Below are positions 11,412-62,510 of a stretch of DNA of 64,000 nucleotides, piece after piece (positions within the stretch are counted from its first letter, which is position 1; each line of letters opens with the position of its first letter). The notes below the pieces were generated by a model that was given only the letters and a program-made list of their open reading frames with translations, made no database searches and was not told the origin of the DNA. The DNA is from Planctomycetaceae bacterium (GTDB lineage: Bacteria; Planctomycetota; Planctomycetia; Planctomycetales; Planctomycetaceae): NCBI GenBank assembly GCA_021732785.1, contig JAKFUG010000018.1, positions 1 to 64,000 of the forward strand, given 5' to 3'. Made by a program: the position numbers and the translations under genes.

Positions 11412-11438
11412 CCGAATTCCGTCCGCGTCGCGAAAACA

Positions 11439-12325: not shown

Positions 12326-12390
12326 CCACGTTTCGAGCGCCGTGCGAACGGACTCACCACGTGCCCGTACCGATTCGAAGTTGATTTGCT

Positions 12391-40395: not shown

Positions 40396-40404
40396 CTTCG
40401 TTGA

Positions 40405-40449
40405 CTGCCCGCGAGGCGCAACATATTGCCTCGCGGGCAGTTGCGTTTC
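40405..40449 (+). terminator. Terminator after tRNA-Ser
   Basis: Perfect 13-bp stem CTGCCCGCGAGGC / GCCTCGCGGGCAG (40405-40417 with 40428-40440), followed by TTGCGTTTC. It ends the tRNA transcript and is the first of several hairpins of the same layout. Confidence 0.75.
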
Positions 40450-40530
40450 TGGAGTCTTCCGACTCCTTCCCGTTTGTGGCGCTGTTTGTGGCGTTTTGTG
40501 GCGGGAGGGTTCTCTGCTCGGAGACTTTCA

Positions 40531-41910
40531 ATGGCAACGGCCAAACCCCGTTCACGGCATACGGAGACCGAGTTTCGCGTCGGTAAAGTCAAAGGCTATC
40601 GGCGCGGACTGGTCTGGTATCTGTACTACTTTGAAGAGGGGCGACGACGACGCCCGCGCGTCGGTCCCAGTCAGGATGTCGCCCGTCAAATGGCGGCGCA
40701 GATCAATGGACAGTTGGAGGTCGGCGCTCCCGCCGCACTCTCGTTCGATCCGATTACCATTCCAGCACTGCGTGAGGCCTGGTTGGGCCACCATGAGCAC
40801 GTCCGCCGCTCGTCATTGCAAACCCTGCGTCGGTATCGAACCGCGACCGAACACTTGCTGCGGTTTCTGAATCAACGGCCTGTGAAGTCGGCGTCCAACT
40901 TTCATGTGGCCCACGCTGAAGCCTTCGTCCGCTATCTGCGCGAATTGCGAGTCGCACCGAACGGACATCCCCATTCCAAGAAGCGGCCATTACTCGACAA
41001 AGGCATCCAGTTCATTCTGGAAGCCTGCCGCTCTCTATTTGTCTTCGCGGCCAAGCGCCGGCATCTCACTCCGTATGCCGAGAATCCCTTCTCGGCGCTG
41101 GAGCTGAGTCGAATGCCGATCGAACATCGCCGGGAGATCGTGCTGCCAACGGGCGAACAGGCGGCCCAGTTGCTTTCAACTGCGGACGATTGGGCATTCG
41201 CCATTCTCGTCACGCTGGCGCTTACGGGACTGCGACCAGGCGAACTGGTGCACCTGCTTGTCGAGGATTTCGATCCGGTCGGACGACTGCTCCACGTTCG
41301 CAATCGTCCGGCGCTCGGATGGCAGGTCAAGACGCGGCAGGACCGCTTCGTGCCCTTGCTGGTCCCACATGCCCAACTGCTGATGGCGCGGCTTGGCGCG
41401 CGCCGCGGAGGGACGCTGTTCCAGCGGCCCCGATTCTCTGCGGATCAACTGCCATCATGGACCATTTCGTCTGCATCAGCCGCTCAGGAAGCGAGCCGGC
41501 GTTGCACGGCGCGCGAGACGACCAAGAGGGACGCACTGACGCGGACTGAACAAGCCATCGAGAGTCGGCGAATTTGGTCAGAATTGGGGATGATCAAAAC
41601 CGATGCGATCCGGATTGCTCTCGGGCGGTTGGCCCGTCGGACAGAGACACCGCAATTGAACACGCCAAAGGTCTTTCGACACCTCTTTGCCACCACGCTA
41701 CAAGAAGGCCGGGTAGACCCCCTAATTCGGAATGAGCTACTCGGTCATATGCCCGAAGATGGTCCCCGATCGGGCGGCGGTCTGGGCATGACGGCGAACT
41801 ACACACATACGCGGTTGGAGACAAAACGCAGCCAACTGGAGTCGGCATTCGTGGAACTCCCAATGCTCCAAGTGCTGAGCATGCGCATGGCAGCACTTGG
41901 AGTCCATTGA
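40531..41910 (+). CDS. Tyrosine recombinase (integrase) adjacent to tRNA-Ser
   Basis: A 459-residue site-specific recombinase, start 40531 with GGAG upstream. The N-terminal ~200 residues form a SAM-like DNA-binding part. The catalytic domain shows Arg235 (ALTGLRPGEL), the K/H-x-x-R-H motif Lys380-VF-Arg383-His384 (TPKVFRHLFATTLQEG), and the nucleophile Tyr424 (TANYTHTRLE). It is expected to integrate or excise an element at the tRNA 3' end. A helical insert of about 50 residues lies before the second motif. A second recombinase of related layout is at 53861-55411. Confidence 0.9.
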   Translation: MATAKPRSRHTETEFRVGKVKGYRRGLVWYLYYFEEGRRRRPRVGPSQDVARQMAAQINGQLEVGAPAALSFDPITIPALREAWLGHHEHVRRSSLQTLRRYRTATEHLLRFLNQRPVKSASNFHVAHAEAFVRYLRELRVAPNGHPHSKKRPLLDKGIQFILEACRSLFVFAAKRRHLTPYAENPFSALELSRMPIEHRREIVLPTGEQAAQLLSTADDWAFAILVTLALTGLRPGELVHLLVEDFDPVGRLLHVRNRPALGWQVKTRQDRFVPLLVPHAQLLMARLGARRGGTLFQRPRFSADQLPSWTISSASAAQEASRRCTARETTKRDALTRTEQAIESRRIWSELGMIKTDAIRIALGRLARRTETPQLNTPKVFRHLFATTLQEGRVDPLIRNELLGHMPEDGPRSGGGLGMTANYTHTRLETKRSQLESAFVELPMLQVLSMRMAALGVH

Positions 41911-42220: not shown

Positions 42221-42470
42221 TCCCGTTCAAGAAACTCCCACTCGCGCCATCATGATCTGTCGAGGCCAACAAATCTAAATCCAAGCAACTTTCGCGTCAT
42301 ATAAGGTGATGCGATTGGTATAGCTCTGGGAAGCGATTCCTGGAGTCCATCCGGCCTCGCGCAGATTGGTTTCAACGGGTTTACGCGGGGTTGTTTTCGT
42401 TTTTGTCACCTCGCAAACGGGATCGTTCGTCGATCCTGTCACAGTTTCACCAAAGTGGAGGATCAACATC

Positions 42471-42833
42471 GTGTCGCACATTGTGCAGATTCAGGCCGAG
42501 ATTCGTGACCCGGTCGCCATTCGGGCGGCGTGTGGTCGGTTGTCGCTGCCGGAGCCCGTCTTCGGCGAGACGAAGCTCTTCACCAGTTCGGCCGTGGGCT
42601 GGGCGGTGCGGTTGCCGGAATGGCGGTATCCGGTGGTCTGTGATGTCACCACCGCCAAGATTGCCTTCGACAACTTTGAAGGCCGTTGGGGTGAGCAGAA
42701 GGAGTTGGACAGGTTCCTTCAAAGGTACTCGGTGGAGAAGGCCGGCATCGAAGCGCGGCGACAGGGACATACCGTCAGCGAGGAACAACTTGCCGACGGT
42801 TCGATTCGTGTGCGGATCGCGGTGGCAGGTTGA
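42471..42833 (+). CDS. DUF1257 (Ycf35-like) protein
   Basis: A 120-residue protein with a GTG start at 42471 and GGAGG nine bases upstream. It begins (V)SHIVQIQAEIRDPVAIRAAC, the typical opening of DUF1257/Ycf35 proteins known from cyanobacteria, algal plastids and planctomycetes. The later part (RYSVEKAGIEARRQGHTVSE) also fits the family. In cyanobacteria the family is neighbour to DUF2997; here DUF2997 lies at 43102, and a Ycf46-like ATPase follows. The function of the family is unknown. Confidence 0.8.
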   Translation: MSHIVQIQAEIRDPVAIRAACGRLSLPEPVFGETKLFTSSAVGWAVRLPEWRYPVVCDVTTAKIAFDNFEGRWGEQKELDRFLQRYSVEKAGIEARRQGHTVSEEQLADGSIRVRIAVAG

Positions 42834-42883
42834 GATGACCTCACTCTCTGCGATCGACTTTCCTTTGCGATTGAGGAGACAGT

Positions 42884-43102
42884 ATGACCAGCACACGCCG
42901 TCGCCGTGTTCTTCGTCCGGTGGCATCAACGTCCACAGTCGTCTCGGCACAGCTGTCCCGATGGCGGGGGCGGCTGGCGGAAGAGCAGCAGGCATTGAGT
43001 CGCTGGATGACGAGACTGAAGCGAGCCTTTCACTCATTGGAAAAACATCAACAGCGAGTCGCCCGGCTGGAACGGCAGATTCGCCAAGTGGAGGAGACCT
43101 GA
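42884..43102 (+). CDS. Small basic coiled-coil protein
   Basis: A 72-residue basic protein (MTSTRRRRVLRPVASTST ...), whose second half is a predicted coiled coil (SLEKHQQRVARLERQIRQVE). Its TGA overlaps the ATG of the DUF2997 gene (TGATG), which supports translational coupling. No known domain. It lies 50 bases after DUF1257, probably in one transcript. Confidence 0.65.
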   Translation: MTSTRRRRVLRPVASTSTVVSAQLSRWRGRLAEEQQALSRWMTRLKRAFHSLEKHQQRVARLERQIRQVEET

Positions 43103-43290
43103 TGTCCAAGATCATCGAAGTCACGGTGTCGCCCAAGGGCGAGACCACCATTCAAACGAAGGGTTTCACCGGCGATCAATGTCGTGACGCCACGCGCAAC
43201 CTCGAAGCGGCACTGGGTGTGCGGACGCGCGAACAACTGACGGACGAGTTCCACGCCACGGCCGCGAATGCTCAAGAAGCACACCAGTAA
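43102..43290 (+). CDS. DUF2997 protein
   Basis: A 62-residue protein starting MSKIIEVTVSPKGETTIQTK. The order of a short beta-hairpin (EVTVSPKGETTIQTKGFTG), then CRDATRNLEAALG, matches DUF2997, a family found next to Ycf35 in cyanobacteria. It overlaps the stop of the preceding small gene by one base. The function is unknown. A hairpin follows at 43324. Confidence 0.75.
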   Translation: MSKIIEVTVSPKGETTIQTKGFTGDQCRDATRNLEAALGVRTREQLTDEFHATAANAQEAHQ

Positions 43291-43414: not shown

Positions 43415-44929
43415 ATGAGTCTGGTGACGCAACTTAACGACTACATCAACGCGGCCTTCAGCGGGCTGTGGGTCACGACCGTCGAGCCCGACGAAGCCGA
43501 GCGGGAATTGGTGGAACACGCCCGCCGTCGACAGTGGACGTTGGCAGTGTGGGATCTCGCGCGGGGCTTGCGATTTCCCGCGAATGCCCCCGCAACCGTG
43601 CCCCAAGTCGATGATCCTCTGGCGGTATTGAAAGCTCTGCCCACACTGGCACCGGTTCCCACCGGCGAAGACGCGACCACCAGCGAGCCGACCACGCTGC
43701 TCGTCCTGCCGAACTTTCATCGGTTCTTGAACAGTCCCGAAATCGTTCAAAACCTGTTCGAGCAACTCGTCGCGGGCAAGCAGAGCCGGACATTTATCGT
43801 TGTGCTCTCGCCCGTCGTCGCGATCCCGGTCGAACTCGATCGGGTTTTCGTGGTGATCGACCATGCGTTGCCGACGCCGGATCAACTCGGTCAGATTGCC
43901 CAGGATGTCCTCGCCGACCATCCGGATGGCATCCCCACCAATCGAGCGTGGCAAAGTTTGTTGGAGGCGGCCGCCGGGTTGACGCGTGCTGAGGCCGAAG
44001 GCGCGTTTGCCCTGAGCCTGGCCCGACACGACGAACTCCGACCGGAAGTCATTTGGGAATTGAAGGCCCAGACGTTGCGGAAGCAGAACTTGCTTACACT
44101 GCATCGCGGGCCGGGGGACTTCACATCGCTGGGTGGTTTGACGGCCCTGAAGGACTTCTGTCGCCGGGCACTCCAACCGGGCCGGTCGGTGAAACCCCGT
44201 GGAGCACTCCTCTTGTCGCCGCCGGGTTGCGGCAAGTCGGCGTTCTGCCGGGCGCTGGGCAACGAGACAGGCCGACCGGTACTGACGCTCGACATCGGCA
44301 ATCTGATGGGCGGACTGGTCGGCGACACGGAGCGCAATGTCCGGCAGGCGCTCAAGATCGCTGATGCGATGAGTCCCTGCATTTTGTTCGCCGATGAACT
44401 GGAGAAAGGGTTATCGGGCGTGGGCGGCAGTGGCGATTCGGGCGTTTCAACACGACTGTTTGGCACGCTCTTGAGCTGGCTGGCCGATCACGAGTCCGAT
44501 GTGTTCTTCATCGGCACGGCGAACGACATTAGCCGGTTGCCGCCGGAGTTCACCCGCGCCGAGCGTCTCGACGCGGTGTTCTTCGTGGATCTTCCCGTTG
44601 CCGCGGAACGGCAGACGATCTGGCAACTCTATCGCCGCCAGTACGACATCGCGGCCAATCAGCCCATTCCGACGGACACCGACTGGACGGGGGCCGAGAT
44701 CAAGTCGTGCTGTCGGTTGTCGGCACTGCTGGATGTCTCACTGACCGAAGCGGCGAAGAATGTCGTGCCGGTCGCCCACACGGCCGCGGAAGCCGTCGCG
44801 AAACTCCGTCAGTGGGCGAGTGGCCGGTGTCTGTCGGCCGATCGTCCCGGTCTCTATGTCCATTCGCCGGAGGCGGGGGATACTTCGCGCCGCAAGGTGC
44901 GCCGGCCTGCCGACCCGCAGAATAACTGA
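43415..44929 (+). CDS. AAA+ ATPase, Ycf46-like
   Basis: A 504-residue ATPase. The N-terminal ~235 residues match the Ycf46 type regulatory part (LNDYINAAFSGLWVTTVEPD, TLLVLPNFHRFLNSPEIVQN, VFVVIDHALPTPDQLGQIAQ). The AAA module has Walker A GCGKS at 271-275 (LLLSPPGCGKSAF), Walker B CILFADELEK, and sensor-1/Arg-finger regions (VFFIGTANDISRLPPEFTRA). Ycf46 is a conserved AAA of cyanobacteria and plastids. The gene lies with Ycf35-like and DUF2997 genes and may serve as unfoldase or remodeller. The substrate is unknown. Confidence 0.85.
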   Translation: MSLVTQLNDYINAAFSGLWVTTVEPDEAERELVEHARRRQWTLAVWDLARGLRFPANAPATVPQVDDPLAVLKALPTLAPVPTGEDATTSEPTTLLVLPNFHRFLNSPEIVQNLFEQLVAGKQSRTFIVVLSPVVAIPVELDRVFVVIDHALPTPDQLGQIAQDVLADHPDGIPTNRAWQSLLEAAAGLTRAEAEGAFALSLARHDELRPEVIWELKAQTLRKQNLLTLHRGPGDFTSLGGLTALKDFCRRALQPGRSVKPRGALLLSPPGCGKSAFCRALGNETGRPVLTLDIGNLMGGLVGDTERNVRQALKIADAMSPCILFADELEKGLSGVGGSGDSGVSTRLFGTLLSWLADHESDVFFIGTANDISRLPPEFTRAERLDAVFFVDLPVAAERQTIWQLYRRQYDIAANQPIPTDTDWTGAEIKSCCRLSALLDVSLTEAAKNVVPVAHTAAEAVAKLRQWASGRCLSADRPGLYVHSPEAGDTSRRKVRRPADPQNN

Positions 44930-48259: not shown

Positions 48260-49225
48260 ATGAGTGCATCATTGCTCGCCGAACCACCGACCGGTTCGTC
48301 ACAACGGTCGATCGCTTCCGCACGGCTGCACAGCACCATGGCGGCCGCACGGCTGAGTTTTACCTGGCTCGGCGTCCGCAAATCGCTCACGACGGAGCAG
48401 AAGAATCAGGCGGCCGATTCATTCGGAGCCGAAGGGAAGTTCTTGTCGGCGGGCAAGAAACTCCTCGACACGTCGCATCCCGCGTTCAAAGCCGTGACGG
48501 CCATCAAAGGTCGCTGCCAGAGCTACTGGCGGGCAGTATCGCTGCCGTACCCGGAGCCGGGGATTCGCCTGATCCGGCAACAAGCCATCCGCGATTTCGA
48601 CAAACAGATCGGGAGCTTTCGGGAAGAACTCACCGCAGCGGTCGAAGAACTCGATCGGCACTACGCCGACCTGCGGTCTGCGGCGCGGCGACGCCTCGGA
48701 GGCTTGTTCGATCCCCGTGATTATCCCGTTTCGTTGATTGGGCTGTTCGGGATCGAGCATGAGTATCCCTCCGTCGAGCCGCCCAGTTACCTGCGACAAC
48801 TCAATCCCGAACTGTACGAACAAGAATGCCAACGGATGCAGGCTCGTTTCGATGAAGCCGTGCGGTTGGCGGAGCAGGCCTTCACGGAAGAACTCTCGAA
48901 GCTCGTCGAACATCTCAGCGACCGGCTCAGTGGAGGCGTCGATGGCAAATCGAAGGTCTTCCGCGATTCGGCGGTCACCCATCTGACGGAGTTCTTTGAA
49001 CGGTTTGGGGCACTCAATGTCAGGTCGAATGACCAACTGGAGGACCTCGTCCATCGAGCGCGACAAATTCTCGGTGGCGTGGAACCGCAGCACCTGCGTG
49101 CCAGCTCGTCGCTCCGACAACGTCTGGTGACTCAACTCGCGGGCGTGCAATCGTCCCTGGACGGCCTGATGGTCGACCGGCCGCGACGCAGCATCATTCG
49201 CCCGAGCCAAGGGAAGCACTCCTGA
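48260..49225 (+). CDS. Helical hypothetical protein (DUF3150-like?)
   Basis: A 321-residue protein, start 48260 with AAAGG six bases upstream. It is largely helical (FDKQIGSFREELTAAVEELD, FDEAVRLAEQAFTEELSKLV). The segment HPAFKAVTAIKGRCQSYWRA and LPYPEPGIRLIRQ suggest the DUF3150-type family seen on mobile elements, but this is a weak match by eye. The stop overlaps the next ATG by one base. Confidence 0.6.
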   Translation: MSASLLAEPPTGSSQRSIASARLHSTMAAARLSFTWLGVRKSLTTEQKNQAADSFGAEGKFLSAGKKLLDTSHPAFKAVTAIKGRCQSYWRAVSLPYPEPGIRLIRQQAIRDFDKQIGSFREELTAAVEELDRHYADLRSAARRRLGGLFDPRDYPVSLIGLFGIEHEYPSVEPPSYLRQLNPELYEQECQRMQARFDEAVRLAEQAFTEELSKLVEHLSDRLSGGVDGKSKVFRDSAVTHLTEFFERFGALNVRSNDQLEDLVHRARQILGGVEPQHLRASSSLRQRLVTQLAGVQSSLDGLMVDRPRRSIIRPSQGKHS

Positions 49226-49467
49226 TGGATCTGTTAATTGCTCCCGATGGAACGGCGACGGCGATCTACGGCGAATCGATTGACCTGCACGCGCTCGGTG
49301 CGGTCTCAATCACCCGCGCGAGCCACGTGGAACCGGATGACTTTGGCCAATGGTTTGCCGAGATCGTCGATGGACCCACGCTGGGCCCGTTCCCCCGCCG
49401 CAGTGAGGCGCTCGCGGCGGAAGTCGTCTGGTTGACCGAGCATCGACTGTTCCCATTCCCGCACTAA
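49225..49467 (+). CDS. Small hypothetical protein
   Basis: An 80-residue protein coupled (TGATG) to the 48260 gene. It starts MDLLIAPDGTATAIYGESID and contains RASHVEPDDFGQWFAEIVDG. Such proteins are common on mobile elements as companions of larger genes. No known domain. A hairpin follows at 49500. Confidence 0.6.
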   Translation: MDLLIAPDGTATAIYGESIDLHALGAVSITRASHVEPDDFGQWFAEIVDGPTLGPFPRRSEALAAEVVWLTEHRLFPFPH

Positions 49468-49499
49468 CTCCGCCATTGAAACCTTCGCGCTCACGTACG

Positions 49500-49540
49500 C
49501 AGCCGCCCCGGAACTGGTCCGAGGCGGCTGATTTTGTTCT
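49500..49540 (+). terminator. Hairpin with T-rich flank
   Basis: CAGCCGCC / GGCGGCTG (49500-49507 with 49523-49530), with an inner CGGA/TCCG extension, followed by ATTTTGTTC. It lies 42 bases before the start at 49572. Confidence 0.7.
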
Positions 49541-49571
49541 GGCCCTGTCTCGATTCAAAGGAATCCGCACC

Positions 49572-49769
49572 ATGACCCAAGCCCAACTCGACCGTGCCGT
49601 TTCGAAAGCCACTGGTGAAAGCTTTGAAGTGATTGCCCGGCGTGGGTTTTCTCTCGTCAATGAAGACTCCCCCGACGACGACCAGGAGAGGTTCATCGAT
49701 TGGGATCAGCATGACGCCAAGCAACGCGTGGCCCTGTTTCGGGACCGACAGCACGGCAACCTTGTCTGA
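49572..49769 (+). CDS. Small hypothetical protein
   Basis: A 65-residue protein, start 49572 with AAAGGA upstream. It begins MTQAQLDRAVSKATGESFEV and continues IARRGFSLVNEDSPDDDQER. Many mobile elements of planctomycetes carry similar short ORFs. Function unknown. Confidence 0.6.
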   Translation: MTQAQLDRAVSKATGESFEVIARRGFSLVNEDSPDDDQERFIDWDQHDAKQRVALFRDRQHGNLV

Positions 49770-49820
49770 CACATTTCCGGGCAGCGTCCTGCTCAAAACA
49801 TTTCCTCTCCGGAGACCGTC

Positions 49821-50129
49821 ATGAATCCACACCATCCTCCGCGGCGGCCGCATCCGCGCCGCCGCGTCGTGATGACGCTGCTCGTCGCCGCGACCTGGCT
49901 GTGCGTCCCGCTGGTCCCTGGCTGCGATCACCGCACCCGTGCCCCGACCTCTGACCCATCGACCCCGGAACCTTCACCAACGGCCCCGATCCGTCCTGAG
50001 CAACCTTCCCCGACCACACCTTCGTCTGGTCGGAACATTCAGTTTCAGGGGCTGGATCAAGATTACCGTGGCTCGACCCGTGTCATGCCCAATGACCGGG
50101 TGATTCATCGAAAGGACGCGGATGACTGA
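49821..50129 (+). CDS. Small predicted lipoprotein
   Basis: A 102-residue protein, GGAG seven bases upstream. A basic N-terminus, a hydrophobic core and lipobox LVPGC predict a lipoprotein. The rest is rich in Pro, Ser and Thr, then RNIQFQGLDQDYRGSTRVMP. It overlaps the next gene by eight bases. Function unknown. Confidence 0.6.
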   Translation: MNPHHPPRRPHPRRRVVMTLLVAATWLCVPLVPGCDHRTRAPTSDPSTPEPSPTAPIRPEQPSPTTPSSGRNIQFQGLDQDYRGSTRVMPNDRVIHRKDADD

Positions 50130-50709
50130 ACTCACAAAACAGATGCTCAGACTGCTGATCGGAGTCCTCAGTGTGCTGCTGGCGGCGCTCTCGGCGAGCC
50201 TGGGATTCTGGCTGGGCAGCCAGGATCCGCCACCGCGCTCCTTCCGGTCAATGGCCCCGACGGTGACCCAATTGGAGCGAATTAGCGAAGTTGCCGCCAC
50301 CCGTGTCCACGTGACCGACATTCTGCTCGCCGAAGGTGAGGGGTATCGCGGCTCCTGGCTGATCAAAGGGGACGCGCTCCTGTCGCTCGACGTGTCACAG
50401 GCCAAGATCGTCGATGTGAACACCGCGGCCCGAACCGCCACCATCCGGCTGCCCCAGCCACGGGTCGTTTCCGCACGGGTTGATCACGACAAGACCCAAA
50501 TCTGGAGCGTGGAGAAGACCACTTGGCTTCCCTGGAAATGGGGTGACCAAGGCTTATTACGCGATGCCGCCATGCGCCATGCCCAGCAACTCATCGAATC
50601 CTCGGTCGGCAAAGAGCACCACTTGGCGCTGGCCCGACTTCAGACCGAACTGCTGATCTACCGCATGTACGATCGGCTCGACTGGAAGATGAACGTGGAA
50701 TGGGAATGA
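50122..50709 (+). CDS. DUF4230 membrane protein
   Basis: A 195-residue protein with one N-terminal transmembrane helix ([20 protein letters not shown]). The outer part matches DUF4230: [40 protein letters not shown]. Members are of unknown function. It shares an overlap with the lipoprotein at 49821 and lies just before the Ubl gene, separated by 196 bases. Confidence 0.7.
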
Positions 50710-50905
50710 TTCTTGCCAATTCATTCCAAAAGCCAACCCCGGCCCCTCCTTTCTACGGACCGCGAAGAATCCCAGCGGACAGGGACGTCTTTCTCCCCGA
50801 AGTAGCGCTGGATCTCGCGGGGACTTGAGAGTCGACGGTCACCAACCCTCCCCCCTCCACGGCCAATTGCCGACTCACCACCCCTTTTGTCAGGAGCGAA
50901 CATCC

Positions 50906-51124
50906 ATGCACATTCTCTACATCAACAACGACGGAGCCGGATTTGCCGACCAGATTCATGTGGAGGACGGCACGACCGTCTCCAAGCTGTTTACGCAACG
51001 CGTTCCTCACGGCCGGACCAGTGACTACCTGATCCGCGTGAACCGTCAGCCGACGACATCCGACCAGGTGCTCCAACCGGGCGACCGCGTCAGCTTCACA
51101 CCCGTGAAGATTGAAGGGGCGTAA
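50906..51124 (+). CDS. ThiS/MoaD-like beta-grasp (ubiquitin-like) protein
   Basis: A 72-residue protein, GGAG upstream. The order beta-strand, loop, helix ([15 protein letters not shown]), strand ([11 protein letters not shown]) and late [17 protein letters not shown] matches sulfur-carrier and ubiquitin-like beta-grasp proteins. The tail ends Gly-Ala rather than Gly-Gly. With the following E2-like, JAMM and E1-like genes, it is the probable tag of a bacterial conjugation system. An alternative is a sulfur carrier. Confidence 0.72.
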
Positions 51125-51177
51125 CTCACTCTGCCTCGTGCCGCCTGATCGCTGATATCTGATTCCTGAATTCCCCG

Positions 51178-51216
51178 TGCGGCCGTCGAGTCACCGCTCG
51201 ACGGCCACCTTTCTCT
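51178..51216 (+). terminator. Hairpin between the Ubl and E2-like genes
   Basis: Perfect 10-bp stem GGCCGTCGAG / CTCGACGGCC (51181-51190 with 51197-51206), then ACCTTTCTCTT. It may reduce transcription of downstream genes relative to the Ubl gene. Confidence 0.65.
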
Positions 51217-51230
51217 TGGAAGGAGACGCC

Positions 51231-52271
51231 ATGCCTCCGTTCGATGCCCAGCTGTGGCGGCTGGCGGGACGACTCGCTACCCGGATTGCCCCTCTCTCCC
51301 GCCAGGCGATTCAAGTCGACCTTGCACCCGATCCGCTGGCGGCTGCCCGTCAATTGCTCAACCGGTTGCGTGACGTCACGGAGCGTGGCTGGACCGTTGC
51401 CGTCGATCATCTCGGTTGGCAAGTTCGCTCGCGGTTGAATGAGTGCCAGAAACAGCTCCACGCGGTTTCGCAGATGCTGCCCCCAGGAACATTTGGGCGA
51501 ATGCCACCGACCCAGCGACTGATCTACGACGAACTGGTCGCGGTGCGTACCGAATTCGCTGAGTTTACCTACGATCTACCGGACGAAACCGTCACCGTGT
51601 TCACGGACCAGATCACCTTGGAAGGCATTGAACTCGGTGCTTTCGAGATTCGATTGCAGGGCCGTGAATTGGGAGGGACGCCTTACATCGTTATCCCCGA
51701 GTCACCCCATTACCCGCACAGCCGCTCGGATGTTCCCCATCCCCACGTCCTGGGCGAACGGCTCTGTGAGGGTGAGGCCAGCGCGCCGCTGGCCCACGCA
51801 CTTCGTACGGGTCGCTTCAGCGACTACTTCCAGATTATTCAGCAGACGCTTTCCAGCTACAACAGCGAGAGTCCGTATGTCGCGCTCGACGCCTGGTACG
51901 GCAGCGACTGTTATGCCTGCGGCGGACACGTTTGCGACGACGACGCCTGCTACTGCGACGGTTGTAATGCGACCGTCTGCTCCGATTGCAGCCGTTCCTG
52001 TTCACACTGCGGCCACTCCGGCTGCGACACCTGCCTGCCGCGATGCCCGGAGTGCCACGACGATTCCTGCTCCGGCTGCCTGAAACGGTGCGCAGGCTGC
52101 TCGAAACTCCGCTGTCCCGATTGCCTCACGAACCAACTCTGCGAGGACTGCCATGCCCAAACTGCTACCGAACAAGATCATGACGAGAGAATGTCCGCTG
52201 CGGATCCGACGACCACAGCCCACGCTCCGCTTCCAGCCGACGGCGTGGGCGAAGTTGCTGTTCTTGCGTGA
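51231..52271 (+). CDS. Predicted E2-like (UBC-fold) protein with cysteine-rich RING-like tail
   Basis: A 346-residue protein, start 51231 with GGAAGGAG upstream. Residues ~120-215 fit a UBC fold: strands [30 protein letters not shown], a VPHPHV flap, then Cys179 in [14 protein letters not shown] as the candidate thioester Cys, and a helix [16 protein letters not shown]. Residues 227-307 hold 22 Cys in ten CxxC pairs ([20 protein letters not shown] ...), a binuclear or multinuclear zinc region like RING/treble-clef domains. It overlaps the JAMM gene by 119 bases. The E2/RING reading is by eye and needs a structure model. Confidence 0.7.
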
Positions 52272-52824
52272 TCTCGGCCATACCGAGGTCGGCGGCTTCG
52301 GCATTTCCGCAGCCGACGATCTGCTGCTGATCGAAGACGTTGTCCTCGTCCGCCAGCAGTGTTCCGTCGTCACGGTGGCGTTCGAGGATGAATCGGTCGC
52401 CGAGTTCTTTGATCGGCAGATTGATCGCGGCTTACGCCCCGAGCAGTTCGGACGCGTCTGGGTTCACACGCATCCGGGCGATTCGGCCCTGCCCAGCTCG
52501 GTTGATGAAGAGACGTTTGCCCGCGTGTTCGGCCGCAGCGACTGGGCCGTGATGGCGATCGTCGCCTGCGGTGGCGACACATTCGCGCGTTTGCAGTTCC
52601 CCGCGGGACCGGGTGGTTCCGTGGATCTGCCGCTGGCCGTCGACTACCGGCAGCCGTTCCACGGCAGTGACCACGACGCCTGGATCGACGAATATCTCAC
52701 AAACGTCCAGAGCGTACCCGACTTCTTGTTTCCAGAGTCGCCATGCCTCTCGCTCCCGTCTCACGGCGCGATTTCTTCACGGACGTATTCACCGCTGGAG
52801 TTAGCGGACTGGCCCGCGTGGTGA
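52153..52824 (+). CDS. JAMM/MPN-domain metallopeptidase
   Basis: A 223-residue protein; the start at 52153 has GAGGA six bases upstream and lies inside the preceding gene. The JAMM zinc motif is complete: Glu45 ([10 protein letters not shown]), then His105-x-His107-Pro-x6-Ser115-x2-Asp118 in [23 protein letters not shown] enzymes remove ubiquitin-like tags or process their tails. The neighbours make this a likely deconjugase or Ubl-processing peptidase. The C-terminal ~80 residues are an extension that overlaps the next small ORF. Confidence 0.88.
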
Positions 52825-53000
52825 ACGCGGCTGCTCCCGCAGCGCTCCCTCCACAGCCGGTGCGGATCATCGTGGTGGTCGGCGAGGAGTTGCTCCTTCG
52901 TCCCTGGATGTCTGGCCGCCGCCGAATCTTTGCGATAACGCCATCATGGCACTCGCTGCCGCGGACCAACCAACCCTTCACTGGAGTTCCGGATGACTGA
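52743..53000 (+). CDS. Small ORF overlapping the JAMM and E1 genes
   Basis: An 85-residue frame in a different phase from the JAMM gene (82-base overlap) and overlapping the E1 start by eight bases. It starts [26 protein letters not shown] followed by a hydrophobic stretch resembles a Tat-like signal. It fills the otherwise empty gap between JAMM and E1, which supports it. It may still be chance. Confidence 0.42.
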
Positions 53001-53655
53001 TCGCTTCTCGCGTCAACAGGATCTCGTCCCCGCGGACAAACTTCTCACGCTCGCCGCCACCGTGATCGGTGTCGGTGCCATCGGTCGCCAAGTGGCCCTG
53101 CAACTCGCGGCCCTCGGAGTTCACCGACTGCAACTGATCGACTTCGACACGGTCGAAGCGATCAATATCACCTCGCAGGGCTACTACACCGGAGACCTTG
53201 GGACGCCCAAGGTCTCCGCCACGGCACGGATCATCCACCACATCGACCCCACGATCGCGGTGGCCACCCTTCCCGACCGGTTTCGCCCTCGCCACGAGGC
53301 CGGCGAGGTCGTCTTCTGCTGTGTGGATTCCATTGCCACACGGGCTGCCATCTGGCGCGCCGTCCACAAATCGTGTGCATTCTGGACGGATGGTCGAATG
53401 CTCGGCGAAGTCCTCCGCATTCTCAGTGCCGCCGATCCACGGAGTCGCGAGCATTACCCGACGACGCTCTTTGAACCCTCCGAGGCTCAGGCCGGCCAAT
53501 GTACCGCCCGCAGTACGATCTACAGCGCCAACCTCGCCGCGGCGCTGATGCTGCATCAGTTTGTACGTTGGCTCCGTCAAATCCCTGTCGACCCCGATCT
53601 CTCCTTCAACTTGCTGGCGAGTGAACTCGGCGTCGTCGGCAATGCCATCAGCTAA
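52993..53655 (+). CDS. ThiF/E1-like adenylyltransferase
   Basis: A 220-residue Rossmann protein. The nucleotide site is [20 protein letters not shown] (GxGxxG at 26-31), followed by [20 protein letters not shown] (Asp50, Asp52, Asn58) and [12 protein letters not shown] with Lys73. VVFCCVDS gives Asp112. Cys170 in [15 protein letters not shown] is the likely thioester or catalytic Cys. It should adenylate the Ubl tail. The protein is small and lacks the CxxC zinc pairs of MoeB/ThiF. Confidence 0.85.
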
Positions 53656-53699
53656 CGGTAGCAGCGGGCGGTCAGGTCCATCATCATCTTGCCTTCAGG

Positions 53700-53740
53700 G
53701 GGGCCGCCGAGCAGTGCGTTCGGCGGCCCCGTTCTCATTT
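53700..53740 (+). terminator. Terminator after the E1-like gene
   Basis: Perfect 11-bp stem GGGGCCGCCGA / TCGGCGGCCCC (53700-53710 with 53720-53730), then GTTCTCATTTCATT. It closes the conjugation cluster. Confidence 0.75.
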
Positions 53741-53811
53741 CATTCGTGATCGGGAACCCGTTGACGTAAATATTACGCACGGCATCTGCGGCGAAAACGC
53801 ACGGTGGTTCT

Positions 53812-53865
53812 TCACACGCGCCCCACGACCGTCGCGTCGCTGAGCGTCTTGATCTCGATGTTACG
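53812..53865 (-). pseudogene. Possible C-terminal remnant of a DUF1080-like gene
   Basis: Reading leftwards from 53865, the frame gives RNIEIKTLSDATVVGRV then stop. RNIxIK is the usual last strand of DUF1080 (3-keto-disaccharide hydrolase-like) proteins. It begins within a few bases of the integrase stop (53861), so the integrase element could have entered the 3' end of such a gene. The match is short, so this is tentative. Confidence 0.35.
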
Positions 53866-55411
53866 GCACCTTTTGGATCGATGACGGCGGCGGGGAACAG
53901 GCCGTTCTCTTGTGCCTTTTCGTCACCGCGGTCGTGTCGGTATCCGAAATCGGTGAACGGAAGAGATCCGCAGCGCGAGACCGCAAAGCCGACACCACAT
54001 CGGCGTACTCCTGCACAAGGAAATTCTGAAAGTGTCTTTGAAGCTGATCGAGATGGGTGTAATGGAGGGACGCGGCACGACCGGGACTGTGCCCGAGAAA
54101 AAAGCGCCGGTACGTTTCGGGGCATCCCGAGTTCTCCAGCGCCGTAGCAAAGAGATGTCGAAAGCCTTTCAACGTCGCCGTGGCTTTCCAACCCACTGTT
54201 CGTGCCACTCGTCGAAATTCACCGTCAATCTGGTCGTAGTTGAGTGCGCCCGCCTCCCGAATCAGACGGTCACGAATCTGTCGCCGGGCCACGACCGTCA
54301 AAGCGTGCTTGTCCTGGCACAACGCGCGATAAGTGGCAACCAGGGCGTCGTAGGACCGATCGACTGCAGACGATTTCGACTCGTCCGTCCAAGCCCGCCG
54401 CAGTAGCACAGGCCCCTGTGCGCCGAGGGGAGACCAGGCTTCCCACAGGTCACTCAGATCGTCGACCAGGGGAAAGCGCTTGTCGCGTTGTCCTTTGGTC
54501 AAGTAGTCGAGGTCCGGATGGCAACAAACATTCAACCAGCCGCGATCCACATCTTCGTGGAACAGCCACATCGGTTCCGAGGCGCGCAGTCCAAACAGGA
54601 TCAAGGGCAGAAACAGTCGCAGTTGAAATTCATCACAGACGTGGATGAATTGGACCGTCATGTCCACCGTAATCGGTGGATCGCGGGTCAAATCCAGACT
54701 GGGGCGACGGAACGTCCCCTGTTTGGACTGGAACGGACTCCGAAAATCGGCGGGAAGCAGATTCCCTCGTTCCGGATCGGTCGCCCAACAAAAGACCGCC
54801 CTCACAATTTGAAGCACGTAATGCTGGCCACGCATCGGTCGAGGGGTGGCATTCTCATGTCCATTAGGCGAGATCACCTGTTCTTGGAGAAAAGAACCGA
54901 ACTGCAACAGAAACGGCCGATCGATGGACGTGGCATAAGGGTACGACCGACCCACACCCGGTTGATCGGCAAACTGTCGCAGGTATTCCAACGCCGACCG
55001 GTAGCGGACGACCGTGCGCAGGTCGATCTCTCCGCAGGCCGCCCGTTTCGCCGCATCGTCCAAATAGCACTCAATCAGTTCCAAAAACGCCAATCGCCGC
55101 CGCCCCATCCCGGAGCGGCCAACCTCGGACAATCGCCGCTCGATTTCCCGTGCACGCATGAGCGCGGCCACAAGATCCCCATCTACCCGATCGGACAGCG
55201 TTCGTCGTTCCGGGGGATCCCACCATTGCAGCACGTAATGATCCCGCCGCCAGTACAGCCGGATTTTGTCGGGCGGAGCGATCCCTCGTGGAAAGTCCAT
55301 GATCCGTTCCAGCTTGTGGCGATCGCCGTAACGGGTCGACCAGGACTTCACTTCCTGTGGAGATCCTATTAGTGTGGATTGAGGAGCAACAGTGGAACTC
55401 GGGGGCGGCAT
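53861..55411 (-). CDS. Tyrosine recombinase (second integrase)
   Basis: A 516-residue recombinase. The catalytic Arg is in LILFGLRASEPMWLF, the second motif is K-x-x-R-H in TLKGFRHLFATALENSG, and the nucleophile Tyr is in ASLHYTHLDQLQ. It shares the KxFRH variant and general layout with the integrase at 40531, but is longer at the N-terminus. It reads towards the DUF1080-like remnant, so its attachment site may be near 53865. The last ~35 residues are basic and probably flexible. Confidence 0.88.
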   Translation of the reverse strand: MPPPSSTVAPQSTLIGSPQEVKSWSTRYGDRHKLERIMDFPRGIAPPDKIRLYWRRDHYVLQWWDPPERRTLSDRVDGDLVAALMRAREIERRLSEVGRSGMGRRRLAFLELIECYLDDAAKRAACGEIDLRTVVRYRSALEYLRQFADQPGVGRSYPYATSIDRPFLLQFGSFLQEQVISPNGHENATPRPMRGQHYVLQIVRAVFCWATDPERGNLLPADFRSPFQSKQGTFRRPSLDLTRDPPITVDMTVQFIHVCDEFQLRLFLPLILFGLRASEPMWLFHEDVDRGWLNVCCHPDLDYLTKGQRDKRFPLVDDLSDLWEAWSPLGAQGPVLLRRAWTDESKSSAVDRSYDALVATYRALCQDKHALTVVARRQIRDRLIREAGALNYDQIDGEFRRVARTVGWKATATLKGFRHLFATALENSGCPETYRRFFLGHSPGRAASLHYTHLDQLQRHFQNFLVQEYADVVSALRSRAADLFRSPISDTDTTAVTKRHKRTACSPPPSSIQKVP

Positions 55412-57136: not shown

Positions 57137-57385
57137 ATGTTGCAGATCCCGAAACTTCCCCCTGACGCCGCTCCCGACCACGGGACCGCAGACGAGGTCG
57201 CGACGGATTTTGGAAAGTTGCCCCAGCTCATTGCGGACGGAGAGATTCCCTTCCCCATGGACCGGCAAATCCAAGAACGGCGGCGACTCGCGGTCCTCGT
57301 CCGTCAACGGCGTCGCCAGCGGCTGATCGAGTATCTCGCACAGCAGATTGCGAGAGCGATTCTGGCCGATGGAGAACCATCCTGA
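57137..57385 (+). CDS. Small protein before the serine recombinase
   Basis: An 82-residue protein, start 57137 with AAAGG six bases upstream. The C-terminal half is a strongly basic helix (QIQERRRLAVLVRQRRRQRL). It lies 13 bases before the serine recombinase and may be a companion. No known domain. Confidence 0.6.
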   Translation: MLQIPKLPPDAAPDHGTADEVATDFGKLPQLIADGEIPFPMDRQIQERRRLAVLVRQRRRQRLIEYLAQQIARAILADGEPS

Positions 57386-57398
57386 AGGAGGCAAGACG

Positions 57399-58634
57399 AT
57401 GCTCAGAAACAGGTTCGAGCCCAATCGCAAGTGCCACGTCGTGATCTACGTGCGGATGTCGACGGACCACCAAAACCCCCGGTCTCCCGATCAGCAGATC
57501 GCGACGATCAAGGAACTCATCAATCGCCTGAAATTGCCGTGGACCATCGTCATGATCTACCGCGACGATGGCAAGTCCGGACGTTACAAACGCAAGCGGC
57601 CCCAATTTCTGAAGATGATGCGCGATCTGCGATGTGGAGCCGTCAAAGCGCAGCTGGTGCTGGTTGACACCTTCGAACGTCTGTCCCGCGGCGATGACAA
57701 CGCCGAGATCCGCCGCAAGCTCTCGCGGGCGGGGGTGTTGGTGCTGACCGCCGATAGTCAATTCCAGGATCCCACCAGCGTCTCGGGGCAAGCCCTCACG
57801 ATGGTGGAATCGATCCGGGCCACGGAAGAGGGCCGCGTGAAAGCGCATAATGTGGTCCGCGGCAAAAAGGATGCGATTCGCCTCGGCCATTGGCCGGGCG
57901 GACCGGTGCCATTCGGTTTTCGCCTCAAGAACGTGATGATCATCTGCCATGGCATTGAAGAAATCGACTACCGCCTCCTCGTGCCCGTCGAGGAATTGCG
58001 CCCCCTCGTGCTGCGGATCTTTGAACTGGCCGCCAAGAAAAAGTGGGGCGCGATTCGGATCTGCAAAGCGCTGAATGCGGATCCCGATATTTCGGACGCG
58101 CTGAAGCCGTTCGTCGTATCGTCGATCGACTACATGCTCGATTCCGAACTCTACTTTGGAGAGATGGTCTGGGGAAAGAACTGCACCGGAATCGAAGATG
58201 ATGTTCGGGTCGTACAGCCAAACCCTGAAGAGGAGTGGGAGCGAAACCCTAACTTCTGTGAGCCGCTGGTCCCCCGCCCGTTGTGGGAAGAAGCGCAAGC
58301 GCATCGGGCCGAACGGCGGCGCCGTCATCAGGCAGCGCTGGAGCACGCGGCGACTGCTGAAGACGGGAGCGCCTGCCCGCGCTTGCGCGGCGTGGCCCTC
58401 ACGTATCCGCTCTCCGGACTCGTGATGTGCGATGCCTGCGGCCGCGCGATGGTCGCCTCGTCGAGTTCGGTCTACCTGACGGTCGACGGGCACGAGCGCC
58501 GTTATGTGGCGTATGTCTGCCCGGCCGCCTTATCCGGCGCATGTCCCAACACCCGTCGGATTCCGGAGGACTGGCTTCGGGAAACGGTCATGGAACTGAT
58601 TTGTCAGCGGCTGTTTCTAAAGCGGACGGCGTAA
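57399..58634 (+). CDS. Large serine recombinase (N-terminal, recombinase and zinc-ribbon parts)
   Basis: A 411-residue recombinase, GGAGG upstream of 57399. The resolvase domain has the catalytic Ser21 in IYVRMSTDHQNPRSPDQQ, then the Arg-rich ERLSRGDDNAEIRRKL. The Recombinase domain (LGHWPGGPVPFGFRLK) and a zinc ribbon (VMCDACGRAM ... SGAC) follow. It ends soon after the ribbon, without the coiled-coil C-terminal part of large serine recombinases; the next gene seems to supply it. It mediates DNA integration or excision. Confidence 0.87.
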   Translation: MLRNRFEPNRKCHVVIYVRMSTDHQNPRSPDQQIATIKELINRLKLPWTIVMIYRDDGKSGRYKRKRPQFLKMMRDLRCGAVKAQLVLVDTFERLSRGDDNAEIRRKLSRAGVLVLTADSQFQDPTSVSGQALTMVESIRATEEGRVKAHNVVRGKKDAIRLGHWPGGPVPFGFRLKNVMIICHGIEEIDYRLLVPVEELRPLVLRIFELAAKKKWGAIRICKALNADPDISDALKPFVVSSIDYMLDSELYFGEMVWGKNCTGIEDDVRVVQPNPEEEWERNPNFCEPLVPRPLWEEAQAHRAERRRRHQAALEHAATAEDGSACPRLRGVALTYPLSGLVMCDACGRAMVASSSSVYLTVDGHERRYVAYVCPAALSGACPNTRRIPEDWLRETVMELICQRLFLKRTA

Positions 58635-60840: not shown

Positions 60841-62510
60841 CTTTGCTTTAGGCACATTTCTTCATTTTTCTGACGGCGTTGGCTCCTTCCATCATGAGTT
60901 GCAATTGCGTCCAACCACGCCAGAGGACGATCCAGCCGGGGTCGTGAACGTGTTTGCGGTTGAGATGGCCGCCGAGTCGAGCCAGAGCCATGCAGAAGTC
61001 GTGGATTGACCATTGCGGAATGGCTCGACCTCGACGCCAGAGGCTCAGCAGACAGACGTAGTCTTCGGCGATAATGTCCGTGGCCAGCCGTGTTTTCGCT
61101 TCGGCGCGACGGCTCAACTCACGGAGATTCAACAGCGATAAGGCGACCACGCTGAGCAGCGCAATCATCGCGTGGAGTCGGCCTGATGTGGTGAACTGAG
61201 GATTTTCGATGCCGCAACCGGTCTTTTGAGCCTTGTGATACTCTTCAATGATCCAGCGACATTCATACCAACCCACGACATCCCAAGCGGCCTGGAAGGA
61301 CTCCACCGGATGATTCGTCAGCAGCAGCCATTCCATGGGTTCTGCGCCGAGAGGCGGCTGTCCTTCCCAGACGCGCACGATCCAGAGTTGCAGCGCTTCG
61401 GTTCCATAATCGCCGGACTTGTCGCAGGGTAAACAAATCTCGACCGGGAGCGCCGCGACTTGCACGACGGCGTCATGCTTCGGGCGATGGATGATTTTGT
61501 CCTGGCCCGTTTGTCTCGGCTTCTTGACGAGCCGGGCGGCAGGAACGCTCAGCGTCCATTGCCCCAACGCGGGGGCTTCTCGGACCAGGTCATGGAGCAA
61601 TCCGCGTCGCATCGTCGACCCGTGTTTGGGAACGGCTCCCCGATTGTAGGCGGAACGAATGACGAACGTTCGACCGCTGTGGACCTCGTGTTCGAGGAAT
61701 TCAAAGGTGTCCGCGCCACGATCGCAGACATCGACCAGTTGGCGACTGGCAGGGAGGGCTTTGGTTCCTTCCAGCCACAAGCGGCTCTCACGAGTGGTAC
61801 GTTCGCGTCGGGATTTCATCGATTCCTGCGCGGGAGCGGCGGCGCGCCGATGCAGAATCTGACTGGCCAGCCCCAGGACTTCGCGGTGCGGGAAACTCAC
61901 TGCCAATGAGTTATGGCACAGCCAGCCCTTGCGCGAGCCGTTACCGATCGGACCAACATCCTCAAGCGATTCACGAGTGGTGTAATCCAGCTCCGTAGTG
62001 TCATGCAGAATGAGCACGGGACCATCCTGCGCTGCGACCTTCTGTAACGTCAGGCCGCGATGCGGCGCGAGAATCGCTTCGTGTGTCACGGTCGGGCTTT
62101 TCAGCAGATGATAGAGACCGTCCAGTTCACCGGGATTTCGCAACTTTTCCGGGAGTGATCCACCGGGGTGGCGCACCAAAGCATCGGCCACACGGATGAG
62201 TCGTCTCGTTCGCCGCCGATCTCCCAATTCCGCTTTTTCAAAATGCGTTTCGCCAAAACTCCGACTCTGCGAATCCGCCAGCGGAACGCTTTCGCGCGAG
62301 GACACATTCTGCATTGGGGTTATTCATCCTTAACCCGGCCCTCGCCCTCAAAAACGAATGGCACGGACCGGGAAGACAACCCAACCTCTTGTTGCAAGAA
62401 ATTCCACAGTGCTCACAGCCAGCGGGAATCCATCCTGGCAGAAATTACAAACCCGACGAGATCTCAGCGAATCGACAACGAATTACGCAAGAAATGTGCC
62501 TAAAGCAAAG
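60841..62510 (-). mobile_element. IS4-family insertion sequence, intact
   Basis: A 1670-base element. The terminal inverted repeats are 22 bases and perfect: CTTTGCTTTAGGCACATTTC plus TT at 60841-60862, and the inverse at 62489-62510. The 8-base target duplication GGGACGGG flanks it (60833-60840 and 62511-62518). It carries a single transposase whose stop codon lies inside the left repeat. Intact ends and an exact duplication suggest recent insertion. Confidence 0.95.
60848..62314 (-). CDS. IS4-family transposase
   Basis: A 488-residue DDE transposase, full length. The N-terminal DNA-binding domain is Tn5-like (LGDRRRTRRLIRVADALVRH). The catalytic residues are Asp105 (LILHDTTELDY), Asp198 (VDVCDRGADTFEFLEH) and Glu357. 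The YREK signature is complete: Tyr350, Arg353, Glu357, Lys364 in YECRWIIEEYHKAQKTG. The gene fills the IS and appears active. Confidence 0.95.
   Translation of the reverse strand: MQNVSSRESVPLADSQSRSFGETHFEKAELGDRRRTRRLIRVADALVRHPGGSLPEKLRNPGELDGLYHLLKSPTVTHEAILAPHRGLTLQKVAAQDGPVLILHDTTELDYTTRESLEDVGPIGNGSRKGWLCHNSLAVSFPHREVLGLASQILHRRAAAPAQESMKSRRERTTRESRLWLEGTKALPASRQLVDVCDRGADTFEFLEHEVHSGRTFVIRSAYNRGAVPKHGSTMRRGLLHDLVREAPALGQWTLSVPAARLVKKPRQTGQDKIIHRPKHDAVVQVAALPVEICLPCDKSGDYGTEALQLWIVRVWEGQPPLGAEPMEWLLLTNHPVESFQAAWDVVGWYECRWIIEEYHKAQKTGCGIENPQFTTSGRLHAMIALLSVVALSLLNLRELSRRAEAKTRLATDIIAEDYVCLLSLWRRGRAIPQWSIHDFCMALARLGGHLNRKHVHDPGWIVLWRGWTQLQLMMEGANAVRKMKKCA

Follow-up and report, generated by a model that had tools for sequence, protein, structure and literature searches.

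The closest described relatives of the locus reported here are prokaryotic operons for the conjugation of a ubiquitin-like protein (Ubl). In class 6d operons, as described by Iyer, Burroughs and Aravind in 2006 (PMC1779556), the Ubl, JAB, E1 and E2 are separate proteins, and the E2 is reported to lack the classical His before the Cys and to carry an absolutely conserved His after it. The eukaryote-like operon of Caldiarchaeum subterraneum encodes Ub, E1, E2, RING and Rpn11. A review (PMC4197634, citing Burroughs 2011) states that relatives of this archaeal operon are present in Planctomycetes; these may be the same as the present loci. The locus was found on a 64,000-nucleotide stretch of DNA, referred to here as the window, which covers positions 1 to 64,000 (forward strand) of contig JAKFUG010000018.1 from Planctomycetaceae bacterium (GCA_021732785.1). 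The own genome of the window consisted of 6.69 Mb in 96 contigs and held a single match to the E2 of the locus. A sequence-only reading of the window had proposed a one-strand set of Ubl, E2-like, JAMM and E1 genes at 50906-53655, and all four genes could be located as placed, on the + strand. The locus carries the part list of a bacterial Ubl conjugation operon (Ubl, E1, E2 and JAMM), with the E1 and E2 activities predicted from sequence and models. Its interpretation as a mobile-element-borne, reversible Ubl-conjugation system is considered probable. The features of the operon are as follows.

50906..51124, + strand: Ubl, 72-amino-acid (aa) beta-grasp ubiquitin-like protein with the C-terminus TPVKIEGA
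51181..51206, + strand: hairpin in the Ubl-E2 gap, 11-bp stem and 4-nt loop, 24 nt upstream of the E2 start codon
51231..52271, + strand: E2-like protein, 346 aa, with N-terminal helices (to ~82), a predicted UBC-like domain (~91-223; HPHV, candidate active Cys179) and a Cys-rich tail (~225-310)
52153..52824, + strand: JAMM/JAB metallopeptidase, 223 aa, with E45 and H105-x-H107-P-x6-S115-x2-D118
52993..53655, + strand: E1-like ThiF-fold adenylating enzyme, 220 aa, Pfam ThiF 8.7e-24, C170 invariant
53700..53730, + strand: terminator-like hairpin with a 13-bp stem, separating E1 from the integrase gene that converges on it

Relatives of the operon were collected by a profile search with a Ubl alignment using one genome per species, which gave 126 relatives; the gene order was read in the best 80 of these 126. 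The co-occurrence search for the gene order revealed that Ubl-E2-JAMM-E1 was kept on one strand in 58 of the 66 loci with at least 3.3 kb downstream; in the remaining 8 at least one gene downstream of Ubl could not be found. The closest operon copy lies in a metagenome-assembled genome (MAG) titled Schlesneria paludicola, with 70% identity in E2 and 88% in Ubl. Ratios of nonsynonymous to synonymous substitution rates (dN/dS) against the closest copy, L031, were approximately 0.15 for E1, 0.10 for both Ubl and the JAMM core, and 0.07 for the UBC region, which points to purifying selection on the operon genes. Recurrence in related genomes, retained order and this constraint together place the gene set beyond chance. 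Faster-changing parts of E2 in the same comparison were the N-terminal helices (dN 0.33) and the Cys-rich tail (dN 0.21). Pairwise distances within Ubl, E1 and JAMM showed Spearman correlations of 0.40-0.60 (no significance test).

The proposal that the first gene encodes a 72-residue beta-grasp Ubl was borne out by its AlphaFold model, by structural alignment and by the Pfam matches of its relatives. The model had a mean predicted local distance difference test score (pLDDT) of 94.0 and a predicted template modelling score of 0.82, with the last two residues at about 55. Among the 50 rows that VIA-align listed were MoaD, TtuB, SAMP1, ThiS, ubiquitin and ISG15, at Z 8.1-9.6 and with 61-71 residues aligned. 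The top Foldseek match was 8ahx_H, an RNF complex chain (expectation value, E, of 2e-4), which was the sole PDB match at 0.001 or below; the next matches were SUMO, ISG15, TtuB, ubiquitin, SAMP1 and ThiS at E 0.003-0.008. Pfam ThiS matched the window Ubl at 0.0069, below the cut-off, and matched 61 of 66 Ubl relatives at E up to 0.1, the best at 7e-7. Near the C-terminus, the 95 distinct Ubl sequences, window included, carried KIEGA (86), KIDGA (4), KIEGG (2), or KVEGA, KIECA and RIEGA (one each); Ubls shorter than 65 aa were dropped from this set, as were E2s shorter than 270 aa from the 90-sequence E2 set used below. Beyond the motif, 12 of the 94 pattern-fitting sequences had no residues and 82 had 1-48 variable ones. 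Variable tails behind an almost invariant KIEGA are as expected of a processed precursor. The mature Ubl may end in Gly-Ala, or the JAMM may cut between Gly and Ala. Precedents exist: the CsUb precursor is reported to be cut after its Gly-Gly by CsRpn11 (PMC6043591), and a change of the last Gly to Ala in the CBASS cGAS is reported to give more thioester with Cap2 (PMC10097602).

The likeness of the Ubl to ThiS and MoaD, together with the ThiF-like E1, would also suit a sulfur-carrier pathway for cofactor or tRNA thiolation without protein conjugation. This explanation is regarded as very improbable, since 58 of 66 loci also encode an E2 with conserved HPH and Cys together with a JAMM, the Ubl of the window ends in Gly-Ala and lacks the C-terminal Gly-Gly of the ThiS/MoaD sulfur carriers, and no thiazole, molybdopterin or thiolation genes were seen among the Pfam-scanned neighbours, where no search by name was made.

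The complete zinc motif that had been read from the JAMM sequence was retained throughout the family: four of its residues (E45, H105, S115 and D118) occurred in all 68 sequences compared and the fifth, H107, in 99% of them, and Pfam Prok-JAB matched the window protein at 1.2e-4 (22.3 bits against a 25-bit cut-off). The E1 alignment of 62 sequences showed G26, G28, D50, D52, N58, Q62, K73, D112 and C170 at 100%; both alignments were made without duplicates and without sequences below 190 aa. A second E1 alignment of 26 sequences, which took in the viral E1 and one divergent row, again had an invariant C170, with the other residues at 90% or more. The earlier description of a ThiF/E1-like enzyme with a candidate active Cys agrees with the ThiF match and with this invariance, from which a catalytic role of C170 may be proposed. 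Profile comparison of E1 against the PDB gave matches to PaaA, MccB, ThiF, MoeB, UBA5 and Citrobacter BubCD (5.4e-9).

No Pfam family matched the window E2, and the 24 families weakly matched by any of 70 E2 relatives contained no E2 and no RING family, with one weak zf-B_box match among them. The AlphaFold model (mean pLDDT 89.7) revealed three N-terminal helices ending near residue 82, then a domain of helix-sheet-helix-helix order (~95-208), with short turns where the cysteines lie. Eukaryotic E2s made up 18 of the 50 rows listed by VIA-align, with Z 6.3-7.0 over 109-121 residues at a root-mean-square deviation of 3.2-4.2; these alignments ended at 213-225, and half of them (nine rows) began at 89-95, the other half at 5-16. 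The fold searches barely probed the Cys-rich tail, and families outside the listed rows are not excluded by them. In the alignment of 70 E2 sequences, H170, P171, H172, C179 and G181 were invariant. The pattern HPH[VIL]...C[EV]G could be found in 77 of the 90 distinct E2s, and the remaining 13 were rows of that alignment (A3) with invariant HPH, Cys and Gly. An HPN...C motif is the signature of E2s, and the HPH and Cys179 appear at about the place and spacing of this signature. A UBC-like fold is suggested with moderate strength by the fold scores, weak when taken alone, together with the invariant HPH and Cys.

The tail of the E2 is a Cys array with 9-11 overlapping CxxC motifs in 74 of the 90 distinct E2s. 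Its first eight cysteines follow CxxC-x(10-14)-CxxC-x4-CxxC-x3-CxxC in 87 of 90 (x = 11 in 78). The first six share the C4C4 spacing of TFIIH p44 (1z60; hmmsearch E 0.0043, borderline), and the last spacing is 3, not 10. No His in the tail was invariant or conserved at 90%, unlike the C3HC4 and C3H2C3 arrangements of RING domains. The tail is described here as Cys-rich, probably zinc-binding, with a possible RING-like start, and is not called RING. The claim of a UBC-fold protein with a zinc-binding tail stands in part, with the UBC-like fold indicated by moderate scores and zinc binding suggested by the Cys array; the claim of a RING-like part fused to the E2 found no support as a canonical RING, the CxxC array being without a conserved His.

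The hairpin between Ubl and E2 was a recurrent feature of the operon. A stem that runs for 11 bp or longer without interruption occurred in the Ubl-E2 gap of 44 of 65 distinct loci, compared with 0.6% of dinucleotide shuffles; identical Ubl genes were counted once and gaps outside 25-300 nt were dropped. Such stems were found in 2 of 78 stretches of 90 nt before Ubl, in none of the 5 JAMM-E1 gaps, the only ones long enough for this control, and in 17 of 62 stretches of 90 nt after E1, as expected where terminators occur. The folding energy of 60 of 66 Ubl-E2 gaps was more than 2 standard deviations (sd) below that of mononucleotide shuffles. Stem sequences were similar between close relatives and differed widely between loci, so that structure rather than sequence seems to be kept. 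The distance from the stem to the E2 start was 12-62 nt among the stems listed, mostly 17-37 nt, and a T run followed the stem in some loci and was absent in others. The hairpin may act as a partial terminator or 3'-end protector that leaves more Ubl mRNA than enzyme mRNA. In the region, 6 terminator-like sites were counted, against a mean of 3.1 (sd 1.8) in shuffles, and no sigma-70-like promoter was found in 49400-54000.

The E2 and JAMM reading frames overlap by 119 nt, and a long overlap is retained in many relatives. The E2 C-terminus shared among relatives (VGQ-AVPA) was considered as a functional motif and rejected, as dN exceeds dS there; the similar ends are probably due to the overlap with the conserved JAMM start in another frame. 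An 85-aa open reading frame (ORF) at 52743-53000 was likewise rejected as a fifth gene. It had a match only in L031 among 40 loci, split in two pieces, the codon-based gene caller skips it, and it is probably not a gene. It is perhaps a remnant of the small genes f25 and f17, which could be seen by eye between JAMM and E1 in some relatives.

Linkage of the operon to recombinases could be observed both in the window and in other genomes. Three recombinase genes lie on either side of the operon in the window.

53861..55411, - strand: tyrosine integrase, Pfam Phage_integrase 1.3e-6, facing E1
57348..58634, + strand: serine recombinase, Pfam Resolvase 1.2e-18 and Recombinase 5.7e-14
40309-41910: second tyrosine integrase, starting 30-135 nt past tRNA-Ser(CGA), depending on the start codon chosen

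In 7 of 40 loci (L033, L034, L037, L057, L060, L061 and L066), a relative of the integrase that faces E1 is found no more than 1 kb from E1, and the serine recombinase of the window probably belongs to the same element as the operon. The suggestion of a tRNA island holds as far as the second integrase adjoins tRNA-Ser; 14-nt pieces of the tRNA-Ser end did not recur on the rest of the 103-kb contig. Without such a repeat the ends of the element are not set, and the case for mobility rests on the recombinases instead. In ten complete genomes chosen for carrying E2, 25 E2 matches were found, one of them a fragment, with as many as 6 in a single genome, and a PF07508 serine recombinase lay within 12 kb of 14 of them and within 8 kb of 11. 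Random placement gave a mean of 0.37 and a maximum of 5 at 12 kb in 20,000 trials. Of the 32 serine recombinases in these genomes, 14 were within 12 kb of E2 and 15 within 15 kb. Among loci with both flanks available, 19 of 36 had a tracked recombinase or transposase family nearby, the kinds being large serine recombinase, tyrosine integrase and Tn5053-like TniB/TniQ.

These neighbours also suit a role in element maintenance or transfer, in which the operon would tag a target such as a host factor, a replication protein or the recombinase of the element for remodelling by the AAA ATPase. PRTRC cassettes, which correspond to class 6d, sit on plasmids. Such a role is in keeping with the nearly half of all serine recombinases in the ten genomes (14 of 32) found near the operon and with the variety of carriers. 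It is held to be doubtful, because 17 of 36 loci with both flanks lacked any tracked recombinase family and the ten genomes had been picked for carrying E2.

A complete copy of the operon on a viral contig extends the mobile context of the Ubl-conjugation system. IMG/VR contig L152 (3300029258_002338) carries the whole Ubl-E2-JAMM-E1 operon at 9998-12813 beside genes for a phage-type DNA polymerase and an HNH endonuclease. Its Ubl-E2 gap is about 12 nt long and hence without a hairpin, and the AAA module of the window, described below, had no match in the searched stretch. On a second viral contig (L151) a Ubl lies near the end of the stretch read, and the contig carries a terminase small subunit and a DNA polymerase; two terminase searches gave no match for either viral contig. 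No E2 or Ubl relative was found among INPHARED phages with the L152 proteins as queries, and no PLSDB plasmid matched the window E2. Matches of the window E1 to plasmids were distant (107 plasmids, all below 60% identity).

The spread of the operon bears on a further explanation, anti-phage or anti-plasmid defence cargo, in which infection would trigger Ubl tagging of phage or host proteins, after the manner of CBASS Cap2/Cap3 or Bil, and the AAA or the conjugate would halt infection. A related bacterial E1/E2/JAB system is described as anti-phage (PMC10097602), the composition of the Bil operon is comparable (PMC11354881), and the present operon is patchy, multi-copy and near recombinases. 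The window E1 matched a part of the PADLOC E1-E2 models (best 2.6e-14) and the JAMM matched a JAB model (2.4e-5), with no PADLOC match for Ubl or E2. Against defence, no constant effector or nucleotide-signalling gene was seen, the neighbours not having been scanned for defence genes, and one operon copy sits on a viral contig itself. Defence is accordingly taken as a possible explanation, if a rather unlikely one.

Two phages showed a gene order that resembles the operon. In crAss-like phage cr111_1 (L155:2731-6606) and Flavobacterium phage FpV4 (L156:1571-5582), the genes encode, in this order, a product of unknown fold, one of 420 aa, a JAB-like protein and ThiF. The JAB-like assignment was made by an HxHS motif read by eye; in FpV4 this gene overlaps the 420-aa gene by 125 nt, and its protein matches PRTRC_A at E 0.054. 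Profile comparison of two of the proteins against the E2 and Ubl families gave nothing, so that kinship with the operon is not supported and only the order is taken as similar.

Upstream of the Ubl operon, the window contains a module of co-directional genes.

42471..42833, + strand: DUF1257 (Ycf35)-like protein, first module gene in a conserved position, Pfam DUF1257 3.8e-4 (21.1 bits against a cut-off of 22.2)
43102..43290, + strand: DUF2997 protein, Pfam 9.3e-16
43415..44929, + strand: AAA ATPase, Pfam AAA 1.5e-25, phrog_8638 (function unknown) 4.9e-82
48338..49225, + strand: conserved gene A, outside any Pfam family and covarying with the AAA module
49225..49467, + strand: conserved gene B, no Pfam family
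49572..49769, + strand: conserved small gene C, frequently the nearest gene upstream of Ubl

Ycf46, Ycf35 and DUF2997-type genes are known from plastids and cyanobacteria. The linkage to such genes that had been noted in the window is upheld for DUF2997, for the DUF1257-like gene just under its cut-off and for the AAA ATPase, the last being of the Ycf46 type by its neighbours only, as the general AAA family alone was matched. Genes A and B gave no Pfam family beyond one stray weak match, and gene C (49572-49769), which is without a known family, could be a substrate or a regulator. Where 5 kb or more could be surveyed upstream of Ubl (53 loci), the AAA gene was found in 22 loci, and genes A and B in 24 each. 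In place of the AAA module, a GHKL-type ATPase was present in 4 of 53 and a DUF2958 protein in 5 of 53, mostly in loci titled Phycisphaerae or only Planctomycetota; HATPase_c_3 matched the GHKL-type ATPase at 1.3e-4, below the cut-off. The GHKL-type ATPase could be seen upstream of the Ubl operon in L103, L113, L120, L142, L147 and L149, and DUF2958 in L119, L120, L128, L142, L145, L149 and L150. Spearman correlations within AAA, A, B, Ycf35 and DUF2997 were 0.45-0.60, except for B-Ycf35 (0.34) and Ycf35-DUF2997 (0.28), compared with -0.03 to 0.36 between the Ubl-operon group and the AAA-module group (no significance test). The two modules therefore seem to be often joined but exchangeable. 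Pfam DUF1257 matched only 2 of the 10 E2-carrying genomes, so the Pfam model appears to catch few such proteins, and among 14 control genomes it matched Synechococcus alone. A 'conserved' minus-strand ORF at 42447-43151 was rejected as a gene, being the antisense of the DUF1257 gene. DUF4230, for which a linkage had also been noted, occurred in only 3 of 82 loci and is incidental.

The operon was patchily distributed. Within the order, E2 relatives were present in 45 of 170 genomes, own genome included, and across the phylum Ubl relatives were present in at least 14 of 392, own included; at most 15 candidates were scored per genome in this search, and copies may have been missed. A search of genome contigs with E2 alone gave no match. 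By their titles, 75 of the best 80 of the 126 relatives were planctomycete (Phycisphaerae included), 3 were given only as 'bacterium' and 2 were assigned to other phyla, namely L119 (Actinomycetes) and L123 (Chloroflexota), both MAGs and putative members of these phyla. The operon also occurs in the named strains Lacipirellula limnantheis I41 and Rhodopirellula sp. SM50.

On the basis of these parts, a reversible tagging cycle may be proposed. The E1 would adenylate the Ubl C-terminus and pass the Ubl via Cys170 to Cys179 of the E2, which would attach it to a target protein. The Cys-rich, presumably zinc-bound tail may serve as the substrate-binding or E1/Ubl-binding, E3-like part of the E2. 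By cutting behind KIEG or KIEGA, the JAMM would free the Ubl of its variable tail; it would also take the Ubl off the target again, and the Ubl-E2 hairpin would provide Ubl mRNA in excess of enzyme mRNA. In many copies of the operon, the upstream module (Ycf35, DUF2997, AAA, A and B) would probably act on the tagged protein. The purpose of the system would lie in conflict or in upkeep of the mobile element rather than in host housekeeping.

Several observations weigh against this interpretation. The cascade is predicted from sequence and models. For the E2, the other 32 VIA-align rows matched the N-terminal helices, several at higher Z, a Z of 6-7 can reflect a common arrangement, and the best Foldseek matches were UBE2H chains at E 0.089-0.095, with no PDB match at 0.001 or below. 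The divergence of E2 was weakly correlated with that of its three partners (Spearman 0.31-0.39). The PDB alignments of E1 span positions 9-123 only, leaving Cys170 unaligned to a known catalytic Cys. The Ubl lacks a Gly-Gly end, as KIEGG was seen in 2 of the 95 distinct Ubls and not in the window. No 11-bp stem was present in 21 of 65 Ubl-E2 gaps, and no AAA gene was found in 31 of the 53 loci that extend at least 5 kb upstream. Duplication of a few elements may lie behind the recombinase linkage, so that not every event is independent, and the 17 of 36 loci without a tracked recombinase family count here as well. No known effector was tied to the operon, the PADLOC scan having covered 6 window proteins.

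Two observations concern other mobile DNA on the contig. A Tn5-like transposase is encoded at window positions 60848-62314 (Pfam Tnp_DNA_bind 2.8e-12). In L153 (contig 64001-84000), two long genes that resemble RND-type heavy-metal efflux pumps and two that resemble P-type ATPases could be seen by eye beside a repeated stretch (contig 63240 and 72401), which is another likely mobile region.

If the mobile-element-borne conjugation system is real, it would offer a compact and complete set of Ubl, E1, JAMM and E2 with a built-in Cys-rich tail, and with it a simple, testable model of tagging. It would connect tagging of the ubiquitin type with phages and mobile DNA, and would link Ycf46, Ycf35 and DUF2997-type genes to a tagging pathway in which their function becomes testable. 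The intergenic hairpin would represent a simple rule for making much modifier and little enzyme from one operon.

In comparison with known systems, the locus resembles class 6d operons in carrying the Ubl, JAB, E1 and E2 as separate proteins in one operon. It differs from their published description (PMC1779556) in the HPH before the Cys and the lack of an invariant or 90% conserved His after it, in the Cys-rich tail of the E2, and in the AAA/DUF1257/DUF2997 module that often stands where 6d operons have a helical protein. No match of PRTRC family models was listed for Ubl, E2 or JAMM at E up to 1, and a PRTRC model matched the window E1 at 29.2 bits against a cut-off of 144.75, which does not place it in that class. 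With Bil it shares Ubl, E1, E2 and JAMM in one operon (PMC11354881), and the window E1 matches PADLOC BilD at 8.4e-6. BilA is described as having two Ubl domains and BilB as carrying CEHH with a His after the Cys (PMC11354881), whereas the window has a single 72-aa Ubl domain, no CEHH, and HPH before the Cys. BubCD is one 458-aa chain, in contrast to the 220-aa E1. The chemistry of CBASS Cap2/Cap3 (E1, E2 and JAB) is alike; there, Cap2 fuses E1 and E2 and is reported to conjugate the cGAS-like enzyme (PMC10097602), whereas the window has separate genes and a true Ubl. The Caldiarchaeum subterraneum operon is likewise a complete set with a JAMM, but has CsUb with Gly-Gly and a separate RING gene in place of the Gly-Ala end and the Cys-rich tail fused to E2. 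Because of these differences in motifs, domains and fusions, the locus does not fit PRTRC/6d, Bil, CBASS type II or the Gly-Gly archaeal operon. Its hairpin, Gly-Ala end, recombinase linkage and AAA linkage appeared in no title or abstract start among the open-licence matches listed, and the available part of PMC7203096 makes no mention of ubiquitin.

It can be speculated, as an unlikely extension, that the operon represents a distinct type on recombinase elements and phages, which would combine E2 and an E3-like zinc adaptor in one chain, a Gly-Ala Ubl, a hairpin-set excess of Ubl and a dedicated AAA unfoldase (Ycf46/Ycf35/DUF2997) into a minimal ubiquitin-unfoldase pathway in element-host conflicts. 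The features that would be new in this analysis, unless Burroughs 2011 already describes them, are the KIEGA end followed by 0-48 variable residues, the Ubl-E2 hairpin, the linkage to serine recombinases and the operon on a viral contig.

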